In this document: piece after piece, positions 20,647 to 24,940 of the stretch
How the letters are laid out: each line of letters opens with the position of its first letter
Position numbering within the stretch: position 1 is the stretch's first letter
NCBI GenBank assembly: GCA_017882335.1
Contig: JADGPR010000008.1
Location: forward strand, 1-64,000
DNA length: 64,000 nt
Reading direction: 5' to 3'
From: Bacteroidales bacterium
Lineage (GTDB): Bacteria > Bacteroidota > Bacteroidia > Bacteroidales > FEN-979
Made by a program: the position numbers and the translations under genes
Notes under the pieces: model-generated
Database searches by the model: none
Told to the model about the DNA's origin: nothing
Seen by the model: only the letters and a program-made list of their open reading frames with translations

Positions 20647-20665
20647 CCTGCCTGCCGGTAGGCAA
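20647..20665. repeat. GC-rich palindromic repeat, degenerate copy (CCTGCCTGCCGGTAGGCAA)
   Basis: Same family as 12425 and 21014. Confidence 0.7.
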
Positions 20666-20686
20666 GTAATTCGTAATTAATTTTCG

Positions 20687-20760
20687 TGACCCCGGCGGGA
20701 TTCGAACCCACGACCCACAGCTTAGAAGGCTGTTGCTCTATCCAGCTGAGCTACGGGGCC
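20687..20760 (-). tRNA. tRNA-Arg (anticodon TCT)
   Basis: Reverse strand GGCCCCGTAGCTCAGCTGGATAGAGCAACAGCCTTCTAAGCTGTGGGTCGTGGGTTCGAATCCCGCCGGGGTCA; acceptor, D, anticodon and T stems all form. Confidence 0.96.
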
Positions 20761-20995
20761 AATTCTTAATAAACTCTCTTCCAATTCCACTTTTCAGATA
20801 TATTTCTCTTTTCCTTTCTTCTGTTCGGGTAGAGAATGATTCAGTAAACAGTACTTTCCATGGTTTATAGAACCGGGTGGATTTGGTTTTTCCATTATTA
20901 TGTTCTTTGATCCGACGTTCCAGATCAATTGTCATACCAATATATACTCTCTTATAAGTTTCACTTTCCAAGACATAGACGATGTACATAAGCAA
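20738..20995 (-). CDS. GIY-YIG nuclease domain protein; 3' end overlaps tRNA-Arg (ATG start probably 20989)
   Basis: YIVYVLESETYKRVYIGMTIDLERRIKEHN; C-terminal residues NWPRSSAG* are read from tRNA sequence. Confidence 0.92.
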   Translation of the reverse strand: MLMYIVYVLESETYKRVYIGMTIDLERRIKEHNNGKTKSTRFYKPWKVLFTESFSTRTEERKREIYLKSGIGREFIKNWPRSSAG

Positions 20996-20998
20996 TAA

Positions 20999-21057
20999 TT
21001 AGAAGGCTGTTGCTCCCTGCCTGCCGGCAGGCAGGGATCCAGCTGAGCTACGAGGCC
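20999..21057 (-). pseudogene. Partial tRNA-Arg copy (5' half through anticodon) with palindrome in the D-arm
   Basis: Reverse strand GGCCTCGTAGCTCAGCTGGAT[CCCTGCCTGCCGGCAGGCAGG]GAGCAACAGCCTTCTAA versus the intact tRNA 5' half at 20722-20760. Confidence 0.92.
21014..21037. repeat. 24-nt perfect palindrome TCCCTGCCTGCCGGCAGGCAGGGA
   Basis: Direct reading. Confidence 0.95.
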
Positions 21058-21255
21058 TGATCTGGGCTGCAAAATTAGAAAAATTTAAGTTACTAACAAG
21101 GATAGCTGCTATTGCTGAAAATTCTAATTTTGTAACAAGGAATGAAAAAGGTACCCTGCAATGCCGGAATAAGCAACAGCTTATCTACTGCTGACTGTGA
21201 ATTTAAGTAAGTTTAATATTTATCGAATGCGTTTACCTTTTAAATCTTTATTGAC

Positions 21256-21884: not shown

Positions 21885-21970
21885 ATTGCGAGGAGCGAAG
21901 CGACGAAGCAATCTCCTGTAGTTATCACAAACAATTGTCATTGCGAGGAGCGCAGCGACGAAGCAACCCC
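21885..21970 (+). repeat. Two copies of dispersed repeat ATTGCGAGGAGCGaAGCGACGAAGCAAtC
   Basis: Copies at 21885-21915 and 21939-21970. Confidence 0.9.
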
Positions 21971-21997: not shown

Positions 21998-24820
21998 ATG
22001 GTCATTGATGAAATAAACAATACGAACGGGACTGAGAACGATAATCCGGAACTGGAATCGGGAGAATTGCGGGGAGCGATCCATTTATCAGCTATGTACA
22101 AAGACTGGTTTCTGGATTATGCTTCCTATGTGATCCTCGAACGTGCGGTTCCGGAAGTTATGGATGGATTGAAACCGGTTCAGCGACGCATCCTCCATGC
22201 CATGAAAGAGCTGGATGATGGCCGCTACAACAAGGTGGCTAACATCATCGGTCATACCATGAAATACCATCCGCATGGAGATGCCTCCATAGGGGATGCA
22301 TTGGTTCAGCTAGGACAGAAAGATCTGCTGATCGATACGCAAGGCAACTGGGGAAATGTACTCACAGGAGACAGTGCTGCTGCTCCGCGTTATATCGAAG
22401 CGAGGTTGTCGAAATTCGCCCTCGAAGTTTTATTCAACCCGAAAACAACCATCTGGAAGTCTTCATACGATGGAAGAAACAAGGAACCCCTGGCATTGCC
22501 GGCCAAGTTTCCTTTGCTGCTTGCCCAGGGCGGGGAGGGTATCGCTGTTGGACTTGCTTCCAAGATCCTGCCTCATAATTTCAATGAACTGATCGATGCT
22601 TGTATAAAAATACTGCAGGATAAAGAATTTGAATTGTATCCGGATTTTCTCACAGGCGGATTTGTGGATGTGTCAAAGTACAACGACGGCCAGCGGGGCG
22701 GGAAGATCCGCTCGCGTGCCAAGATGAGTCAGCTGGATAAAAAAACGCTGGTTATCACCGAAATTCCTTTTGGTACCACCACCAACTCCATCATTGATTC
22801 GATCCTGGCTGCCAATGATAAGGGGAAGATCAAGATCAAGAAAATCGATGACAATACCTCTCAGAATGTTGAGATCCTGATCCAACTTGTCCCAGGAGTT
22901 TCACCGGATACGACCATGGATGCCCTTTATGCCTTCACCGATTGCGAGGTTTCCATTTCTCCCAATACCTGTGTTATCGCGAACGGAAAACCAAGCTTCA
23001 TGGGCGTCAGCGAGATCCTGCGGATCTCCACTGCATCGACCCTTGACTTGTTACGAAGAGAACTGGAGATCCGGAGGGATGAACTGAAAGAACAACTGCA
23101 TTTTGCATCGCTCGAGAAGATCTTCATCGAAAAAGAGATCTACGAAGGGATCAAGAAATGCAAGACTGGCGAGGAGATCGACAAAGCCATCATCAGAGGA
23201 TTTAAACCCTACCTCGACCTCCTGATCCGTCCGATCAACGAAGATGACCTGCATCGCTTGCGGAAGATCCCCATCGAACGCATTTCGAAATTCAATTCCG
23301 ATAAAGCCGACGAAAGTATCCGTGACATCGGTATCAACATAGAAGAAGTTGAAAATCATCTCGCCCACCTTATCGATTATGCCATAGAATATTTCCGGCA
23401 AATCAAAAAGAAATATGGAAAAGGAAGAGACCGGAAGTCGGAGATCCGGAATTTCGATACCATTGAAGCCGTAAAGGTTGCGGCCGCCACCCAGCGGCTC
23501 TATGTAAACCGGGAAGAAGGATTTGCCGGTACATCGCTGCGGAAGGACGAATTTGTGACCGAATGTTCCGACATCGATGATATCATCGTCTTCCGCCAGA
23601 ACGGAACTTTTGTGGTTACGAAAGTCATCGACAAAGTCTTTGTAGGGCAGGAGATCATCCACATTGCTGTCTTCAATAAAAATGATGAACGAACCGTTTA
23701 CAACCTGATCTACCGTGATGGAAAGAATGGCAAGGTCAGGGTAAAGAGGTTCAATGTGATGGGCGTTACCCGAGACAAGGAATATTTTATCACCAAAGGA
23801 ACGCCCGAATCAAGAGTCCTTTATTTTACGGCGAATCCGAATGGTGAAGCAGAGATTGTCAGGGTTGAACTGCGCCCGAAACCGAGGCTGAAAAAATTGA
23901 ATTTCGATTTTGATTTCACAACGGTTTCGATCAAAGGGCGGGGCTCTATGGGGAACATCCTGACCCGGTATGGCGTCAGAAAAATCGAACAACGCCAGGA
24001 AGGTGTTTCAACACTGGGCTCACGGTTGATCTGGTACGATGATACCGTCAAACGGCTCAATACCGAAGAACGGGGAATCATCCTGGGCGACTTCTCCGGG
24101 CCCGACCGGATCATCACTATCATGCAATCCGGTCATTACCGGCTCACTTCATATGATCTCAGTACTCATTTCGATGAAGATATGATCCTCATTGAAAAAT
24201 ATAATCCTGAAAAAATATTCACTGCCATTTATGAAGATACGAAAACGAAATCGTTTTACGTTAAAAGGTTTATCATTGAAGTAACGGAACGGAAGATGGA
24301 TTTTATCGGGGAAGAAGAGAAAAACAAGATTGTGTTGCTGACCGGCGATAAATATCCGAGGCTTGACATTGCTTTTGACATGAAGCTGAAGACCAAAGGT
24401 GCTGAGAAGGAAGTGATCACAGTACATGAATTCATCGGCGTTAAAGGCTTCAAGGCGAAGGGGAAAAGGATTTCTCTCCATGCTGTGAAGAAAATTGAAT
24501 TCCTGGATCCTCTTCAGGTTGATGAACCTCTTCCCGACGTGCATGTTGAAGATGGAGGACAGAAAACGGAGGTCAGAGGTCGGAAGACTGAGGATCAAGA
24601 ATCGAGGATAGAGAATGGAGATCGGAAAACAGAGGTTAGGAGGCAGAAGGTTGATACTGGAGAAAAGAAAATAAAAAATGAAAAATTAAAAGTGAAAGAC
24701 GATTTTCGGAAAGCGAAAAGCGAACAGCGAGGAACGAAAAGCCAAAAGCGAAAAGCGAAGGGTGAGGATAAAAAAGAGGAGGATACGGGAGGTACAGTGC
24801 AGATGGAGCTTCCACTCTAG
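21998..24820 (+). CDS. parC: DNA topoisomerase IV subunit A
   Basis: ASYVILERAVPEVMDGLKPVQRRILHAM; GDSAAAPRYIEARLS; low-complexity charged C-terminal tail. Confidence 0.93.
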   Translation: MVIDEINNTNGTENDNPELESGELRGAIHLSAMYKDWFLDYASYVILERAVPEVMDGLKPVQRRILHAMKELDDGRYNKVANIIGHTMKYHPHGDASIGDALVQLGQKDLLIDTQGNWGNVLTGDSAAAPRYIEARLSKFALEVLFNPKTTIWKSSYDGRNKEPLALPAKFPLLLAQGGEGIAVGLASKILPHNFNELIDACIKILQDKEFELYPDFLTGGFVDVSKYNDGQRGGKIRSRAKMSQLDKKTLVITEIPFGTTTNSIIDSILAANDKGKIKIKKIDDNTSQNVEILIQLVPGVSPDTTMDALYAFTDCEVSISPNTCVIANGKPSFMGVSEILRISTASTLDLLRRELEIRRDELKEQLHFASLEKIFIEKEIYEGIKKCKTGEEIDKAIIRGFKPYLDLLIRPINEDDLHRLRKIPIERISKFNSDKADESIRDIGINIEEVENHLAHLIDYAIEYFRQIKKKYGKGRDRKSEIRNFDTIEAVKVAAATQRLYVNREEGFAGTSLRKDEFVTECSDIDDIIVFRQNGTFVVTKVIDKVFVGQEIIHIAVFNKNDERTVYNLIYRDGKNGKVRVKRFNVMGVTRDKEYFITKGTPESRVLYFTANPNGEAEIVRVELRPKPRLKKLNFDFDFTTVSIKGRGSMGNILTRYGVRKIEQRQEGVSTLGSRLIWYDDTVKRLNTEERGIILGDFSGPDRIITIMQSGHYRLTSYDLSTHFDEDMILIEKYNPEKIFTAIYEDTKTKSFYVKRFIIEVTERKMDFIGEEEKNKIVLLTGDKYPRLDIAFDMKLKTKGAEKEVITVHEFIGVKGFKAKGKRISLHAVKKIEFLDPLQVDEPLPDVHVEDGGQKTEVRGRKTEDQESRIENGDRKTEVRRQKVDTGEKKIKNEKLKVKDDFRKAKSEQRGTKSQKRKAKGEDKKEEDTGGTVQMELPL

Positions 24821-24856: not shown

Positions 24857-24940
24857 GATTGCTTCGGCACGATGTGCCTCGCAATGACAAGGGGCTATTA
24901 TACAAAGGAGATTGCTTCGTCGCTTAGCTCCTCGCAATGT
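24857..24940 (-). repeat. Two inverted copies of the GCGAGGAGCgAAGCGACGAAGCAAT-type repeat
   Basis: attgcttcggcacgatgtgcctcgcaatg and attgcttcgtcgcttagctcctcgcaatg. Confidence 0.85.

Follow-up and report, generated by a model that had tools for sequence, protein, structure and literature searches.

What has happened at a tRNA-Arg gene when a nuclease reading frame lies between a partial and an intact copy of it, and how does the tRNA survive this arrangement? The question is raised by the window analysed here (the whole 64,000-nt stretch of a Bacteroidales contig), on whose minus strand native upstream sequence is followed by a dead 5' half of tRNA-Arg, a GIY-YIG ORF and an intact tRNA-Arg(TCT). 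We consider it likely that this cassette is a minimal mobile element, consisting of a GIY-YIG nuclease gene and a palindrome, which invades tRNA genes and rebuilds a functional tRNA. The features of the locus are as follows:

21066..21100, minus strand: likely native tRNA promoter region (TTG ... TAATTTTG) upstream of the dead half, seen in the 60-nt upstream matches; we take it to be a promoter from the known Bacteroidota consensus
21057-20999, minus strand: whole half-tRNA, palindrome included
21037..21057, minus strand: dead copy, tRNA-Arg positions 1-21 (20/21 aligned, one mismatch, 95% repeat)
21014..21037, no strand assigned: palindrome TCCCTGCCTGCCGGCAGGCAGGGA in the D-loop of the dead copy (inverted repeat, 100%)
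21016-21035: palindrome core CCTGCCTGCCGGCAGGCAGG, inserted after tRNA position 21
20999..21015, minus strand: dead copy, tRNA positions 23-39, GAGCAACAGCCTTCTAA (repeat 17/17)
20738..20989, minus strand: GIY-YIG nuclease ORF, 83 aa from ATG 20989, stop 20738 (Pfam PF01541)
20686..20760, minus strand: intact tRNA-Arg(TCT) (ARAGORN; Rfam tRNA, 69 bits)
20647..20666, no strand assigned: a further member of this palindrome family, located 20 nt past the tRNA 3' end, with 2 mismatches to the core

An earlier note on this DNA had described the order of half-tRNA, ORF and intact tRNA, with the stop codon inside the latter, and coordinates, ARAGORN, Rfam and Pfam bear it out: the last 7 codons and the TAG stop of the ORF, for which TTG at 20995 is an alternative start, run into the intact tRNA-Arg. 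This tRNA gene is apparently single-copy in the assembly, the next-best match in the genome being another tRNA. The direct repeat, described as about 39 bp long, exists but is not continuous, as the palindrome core interrupts it after tRNA position 21; its two blocks (21 nt at 95% and 17 nt at 100%) are the only other matches to the intact tRNA-Arg on the contig and are not due to chance. The repeats are spaced by 297 and 277 nt, and the net insert therefore measures 297 bp, of which the palindrome contributes 20 nt.

Where in the tRNA gene did the insertion occur? The earlier note had favoured the anticodon loop, with homology ending just after the anticodon, and it did not mention the palindrome in the D-loop of the dead half. 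In the window, homology indeed ends there (position 39). However, among about 20 relatives at tRNA-Arg genes with five different anticodons, it is the palindrome, the same or near-identical in each dead 5' half, that keeps its place, mostly at position 21 or 22, directly between GGATA and the D-stem strand GAGC, whereas tRNA homology between palindrome and ORF fades at variable points, from about 7 to more than 25 nt past the palindrome. Because the position of the palindrome is constant and the point of homology loss is not, the conserved junction is the D-loop, which is the likely point of insertion; the anticodon loop was dropped, and the loss of homology there is, judging from these relatives, particular to the window copy. 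Scored more widely, 24 of 26 inserted palindromes fall within cloverleaf loops (D 17, T 5, V 1, anticodon 1) and the remaining two at the D-stem edge of tRNA-Leu, in a sample in which many insertions share ancestry and arm-replacing insertions were not all scored.

That a tRNA gene was split and its function kept is strongly supported by empty sites. An uninterrupted tRNA-Arg(TCT) is found in 13 relatives, in many of which it adjoins the same isochorismatase-like gene as in the window. Among relatives that conserve the upstream region, to which this evidence is limited, the 60 nt before the window's dead half match those before the uninterrupted gene at 45/60 (G005) and 43/60 (G002), compared with 20/60 and 19/60, respectively, for the 60 nt before the window's intact tRNA; in G016 and G003 no such match to the dead-half flank was seen. 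A second site, tRNA-Gly(CCC), displays three states within one genus. In the congener G003 it is empty, the tRNA being followed directly by the native terminator. In the congener G004 the tRNA is followed by a new terminator, a GIY-YIG ORF, a dead 3' part and then the native terminator. The window's own genome (G000) has no ORF at this site; here another terminator stands between the tRNA and a dead copy that contains palindrome TCCCGAGTACTCGGGA, and the native terminator comes last:

G000:C96:26632-26907: ORF-less tRNA-Gly(CCC) scar (locus L211/L220)

As far as sequence comparison can tell, this series shows that GIY-YIG ORFs come and go. Half-tRNAs devoid of a nuclease gene had been thought to speak against an element; one does occur here, but at a site where a congener holds the nuclease. 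Two hallmarks of known mobile genes are present: as in homing, a nuclease gene lies at its presumed target while relatives carry empty alleles (tRNA-Arg and tRNA-Gly), and, as in mORFs, a split gene is restored with its displaced native part kept.

How general is this design? We surveyed 393 genomes of the order, 165 of which have a match to the window protein by a single nuclease query, and examined 143 distinct ORF contexts from these genomes and from loci in named genomes. A tRNA gene lies within 300 bp of the ORF in 96 of the 143 contexts, and all 114 such tRNAs are on the ORF strand; from about 45 tRNAs in 3.5 Mb, we estimate that chance would place a tRNA in this way at about 1% of ORFs. 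As the earlier note had anticipated, a partial tRNA next to a GIY-YIG gene is a widespread arrangement: at 74 of 94 testable loci the ORF is accompanied by an incomplete copy of the same tRNA, against 12/94 in controls at 430-640 bp, which partly reflect tandem arrays, and 0/94 in shuffled controls. The 5' form of the window, in which the dead half precedes the ORF, accounts for 28 loci, and a mirror 3' form, in which the ORF comes after the intact tRNA and a terminator and is itself followed by a dead 3' part, for 58 clear loci. About 15 tRNA types are involved (Arg, Met, Val, Leu, Asn, Pro, Gly, Glu, Ser, Phe, Thr, Ala, His, Asp and Gln), and several genomes harbour tandem tRNA-nuclease units. 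The 5' form also occurs at tRNA-Leu in a WOR-1 MAG (L067), and a KSB1 MAG has a GIY-YIG locus at tRNA-Asp (L088). In a 136-protein tree built from few alignment columns, tRNA type tracks nuclease clade (22 changes, compared with a mean of 52 and a minimum of 46 after shuffling) and the 5' and 3' forms switch inside clades; 36 of the 136 relatives have no tRNA by our criteria, some being cut by contig ends and some lying in other palindromes. An assembly artefact was rejected as the source of the design, which recurs in independent genomes, an isolate Flavobacterium among them. In one genome (L007/L026, G038:C3), an array of tRNA-Val(TAC) copies is interleaved with two GIY-YIG ORFs, and several of these copies have their anticodon arm swapped for a TTCCGTCTTAAAACGGAA hairpin.

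The window protein is a bare GIY-YIG domain (PF01541, E=7e-16) with the catalytic Tyr, Tyr, Arg, His and Glu of the superfamily; across 136 relatives, Y5, Y16, R26 and H30 are invariant (100%) and E62 nearly so (98%). Its nearest solved relatives by sequence are the UPF0213 proteins 1zg2 (E=9e-6) and 1ywl (E=3e-5), YhbQ-type stand-alone proteins which likewise consist of a single small GIY-YIG domain but show low similarity at these E values. The assembly contains one other GIY-YIG match, a domain within a 622-aa open frame that is probably UvrC, a name we assign by inference. Matches to PHROGs homing families cover residues 1-45 only and are weak (E=2e-4). A scan of IMG/VR with the window protein as query returned no close viral relative and a search of PLSDB no plasmid relative, and a phage or plasmid vector was rejected on these grounds.

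How might such a cassette enter a tRNA gene without destroying it? We envision that the nuclease cuts the gene where it encodes a loop, in this case between positions 21 and 23 in the D-loop, and that repair inserts the cassette at the cut. The palindrome would form one end of the insert; the other end would be a tRNA part that joins the untouched remainder into a complete tRNA, and the displaced part would persist as a dead copy with the palindrome inside it. The ORF, which points in the tRNA direction, would probably be expressed from the tRNA promoter, and the homologous tRNA pieces might give rise to tandem arrays or to loss of the ORF, leaving scars. Comparison among genomes documents the anatomy, the empty sites, the scar, the recurrence at many tRNAs and the conserved active site; from these we infer cleavage, the cleavage site and the route of transfer or transposition. 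Since each locus predicts the cut site within a base or two, the mechanism is directly testable.

Against this scheme, the intact tRNA keeps the presumed target after insertion, and the restored part of the 5' form matches the host locus and need not be an imported part. In most loci, the restored 5' part agrees with the local dead half at 20-23 of 21-23 nt, whereas agreement with other loci averages about 66%. Given this near-exact local match, local templating or co-adaptation seems a better account of the restored part than the earlier idea that the element carries a replacement 5' half; the match could either have been templated locally during repair or be forced by acceptor-stem pairing. 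In loci of the mirror 3' form, the intact tRNA is followed by a terminator unlike the native one, and there the element seems to bring its own.

How does the cassette relate to known systems? Its closest counterparts are phage SegB and fungal mitochondrial mobile ORFs (mORFs). T-even phages encode SegB as a GIY-YIG homing endonuclease; according to the sections of the report that we draw on, its gene lies beside tRNA genes of many isotypes, the enzyme cuts inside tRNA genes at the motif RAWTSGAAC, whose reverse complement is a T-loop sequence, units of tRNA and nuclease gene are amplified in tandem, and the 3' end of the nuclease gene shares microhomology with the 5' end of the tRNA (PMC13096335). 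Compared by description, the two have in common a GIY-YIG nuclease at tRNA genes and tandem tRNA-nuclease units; unlike the cassette, SegB is phage-borne, and those sections report neither a dead half-tRNA with a palindrome nor a rebuilt tRNA. Fungal mitochondrial mORFs (Allomyces, Glomus atp6) place an endonuclease ORF together with a replacement part in an essential gene and leave the displaced native part behind, often unexpressed (PMC3630166). The replacement of a gene part and the native part left behind recur in the cassette, whereas mORFs reside in mitochondrial protein genes, supply foreign C-terminal parts, are larger and are described with no mention of a palindrome mark; the Glomus enzymes are moreover LAGLIDADG proteins, in contrast to a GIY-YIG protein in bacterial tRNA genes. 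Group I introns with homing endonucleases are found in bacterial tRNA genes, including the anticodon region (PMC3984707). They splice, whereas the cassette restores the tRNA by duplication and mainly occupies the D-loop or T-loop; a group I intron was rejected for the window, as an Rfam scan at lax threshold revealed no ribozyme and tRNA as the only credible hit. In the open-access PMC literature we found no description of bacterial tRNA cassettes of such design. We conclude that the cassette is real and widespread, and that it probably represents a new form of replacement-part homing element. If so, essential tRNA genes host widespread, near-minimal mobile elements with one gene of about 80-100 codons, which survive by rebuilding the gene that they split, a parallel on bacterial chromosomes to mORFs and SegB. 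This would also account for small GIY-YIG proteins that end in translated tRNA and for the partial tRNAs that adjoin them.

Alternatively, the palindrome itself may be the mobile unit, in the manner of REP or MITE sequences. The GIY-YIG protein would then move palindromic DNA into hairpin loops; tRNA genes would be one class of target, since their DNA folds into hairpins, and at the tRNA-linked loci a part of the tRNA would have been captured as well. We regard this as a genuine, if somewhat doubtful, possibility. It is compatible with an element that rebuilds tRNA genes: a mobile nuclease is common to both, and the unit that is moved differs. Consistently, palindromes and nuclease co-occur. 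The window palindrome is present in 24 copies within one mismatch in its own genome (chance expectation in the window, 0), and many of the dispersed copies sit cleanly inside other intergenic repeats. Among genomes scored positive for the nuclease it occurs in 49 of 165, among negative ones in 3 of 228 (p=2e-17), and at four or more copies in 17 positive genomes from about 15 families and no negative one (p=2e-7); a second palindrome, TCCGCCNNGGCGGA, reaches at least five copies in 12 positive and no negative genomes (p=2e-5). All three p values ignore kinship, the counts include copies at tRNA loci, nuclease status derives from one query, and the four- and five-copy thresholds were picked after the counts had been seen. 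A reversed control pattern was never found across the 393 genomes, and a third palindrome, CCTGTCTACCGACAGG, was weakly informative as a test for cognate pairs.

Also in line with mobile palindromes is a second class of ORFs, which are enclosed by a palindrome and have no tRNA (L173, L174, L176, L178 and L180). At L173 (G193:C36), the GIY-YIG ORF is bounded by inverted ends ACCCCGTTGGAT/ATCCTACGGGGT and lies inside a tyrosine-recombinase/integrase-like gene, so named from the peptide GHS/SSKTTEIYTHV and not from a family search. The genome G339 holds one tRNA-free ORF and 14 ORF-less copies with the same arm type, most of which have asymmetric arms, ACCCCGTTGGAT / ATCCTACGGGGT, identical to those of the copy with the ORF. 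This suggests autonomous elements together with internally deleted ones, that is, MITE-like derivatives, although the shared asymmetric ends come from one genome and from another palindrome than the window's. No ORF-less palindromes of this type were seen in 79 other genomes tested, and they are absent from the four other genomes that hold the same ORF class (1/5 positive). Insertions into loops, whether of tRNAs or, in G377, of another repeat hairpin, fit as well, but most dispersed copies lie in simple repeat contexts with no obvious hairpin, the match between palindrome and nuclease clade is loose, and no GIY-YIG enzyme is known to transpose. With less certainty than the tRNA cassettes, the scattered palindromes can be read as probable derivatives that lack the ORF, or else as substrates on which such nucleases act. 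The composite in G377 (L249-L251) is a nested repeat, in which CCTGCCTGCCGGCAGGCAGG occupies the loop of a different hairpin, likewise dispersed (TTCCGCATCA...AGTGCGGAA).

REP sequences, short dispersed palindromes linked to the small nuclease gene of RAYT transposases, offer the closest analogy to such a link. Dispersed palindromes and a small nuclease gene are shared features; RAYTs, however, are Y1 tyrosine transposases, whereas the cassette encodes a GIY-YIG protein and has no other substantial ORF. The open-access PMC literature yielded no paper on GIY-YIG proteins with REP-like palindromes, no description of these palindrome sequences or their translations, and no described source for the dispersed palindromes of these genomes. 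Tentatively, we suggest that stand-alone GIY-YIG nucleases might drive a large undescribed class of bacterial palindromic elements, comprising invaders of tRNA loops and other genes as well as MITE-like ORF-less progeny, in Bacteroidota and possibly other phyla. Such a class would be the GIY-YIG counterpart of REP/RAYT systems and would provide a testable origin for the dispersed palindromes of these genomes; it is in the palindrome link that something categorically new might lie.

Might the locus instead serve the host? Some GIY-YIG nucleases are antiviral, and in a defence or toxin-antitoxin module the nuclease would attack invading tRNA genes or tRNAs, with the dead tRNA acting as decoy or regulator. 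The invariant active site would suit such a role, as would weak PADLOC matches (UzuA, 1e-5; PDC-S14), but these matches are confined to about 30 residues within the catalytic core that such nucleases share. The ORF has been lost at tRNA-Gly while the scar stays, the tRNA part kept in the dead copy varies between loci and no co-conserved partner gene was seen, and we consider a defence function unlikely. Slightly less probable still is a non-mobile tandem duplication of the tRNA, in which a passenger nuclease was trapped, the dead copy decayed and the palindrome was gained by chance. Dead and intact parts do match locally, and the upstream region is also repeated at L039 (31 nt) and L141 (45 nt). 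Chance decay can hardly produce one palindrome recurring at a fixed tRNA position across many families, 15 tRNA types in two mirror forms with the strand always the same, and a series of empty, full and scarred states at one site, and a duplication is disfavoured for this reason. Finally, it is very improbable that the locus is what remains after an integrase inserted DNA at a tRNA attachment site: a direct repeat of a tRNA part, resembling attL/attR, is present and typical of tyrosine-recombinase integration, but the 297-bp cassette contains a GIY-YIG ORF only and no integrase gene, its dead copy carries a palindrome, many similar minimal units exist elsewhere, and among the relatives none with a long integrase-bearing form was seen.

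The neighbours of the tRNA-Arg locus encode an outer-membrane beta-barrel protein, an isochorismatase-like protein and a topoisomerase IV subunit A-type protein. The end of the last of these ORFs (window 24500-24820) forms a long low-complexity tail of lysine, arginine and glutamate that resembles translated intergenic repeats. A dispersed repeat, TTGCTTCGTCGCTNNGCTCCTCGCAAT, occurs in three exact copies at window 21885-21911, 21940-21966 and 24912-24938, and in the congener G003 the same repeat also flanks the GIY-YIG ORFs L032 and L204.
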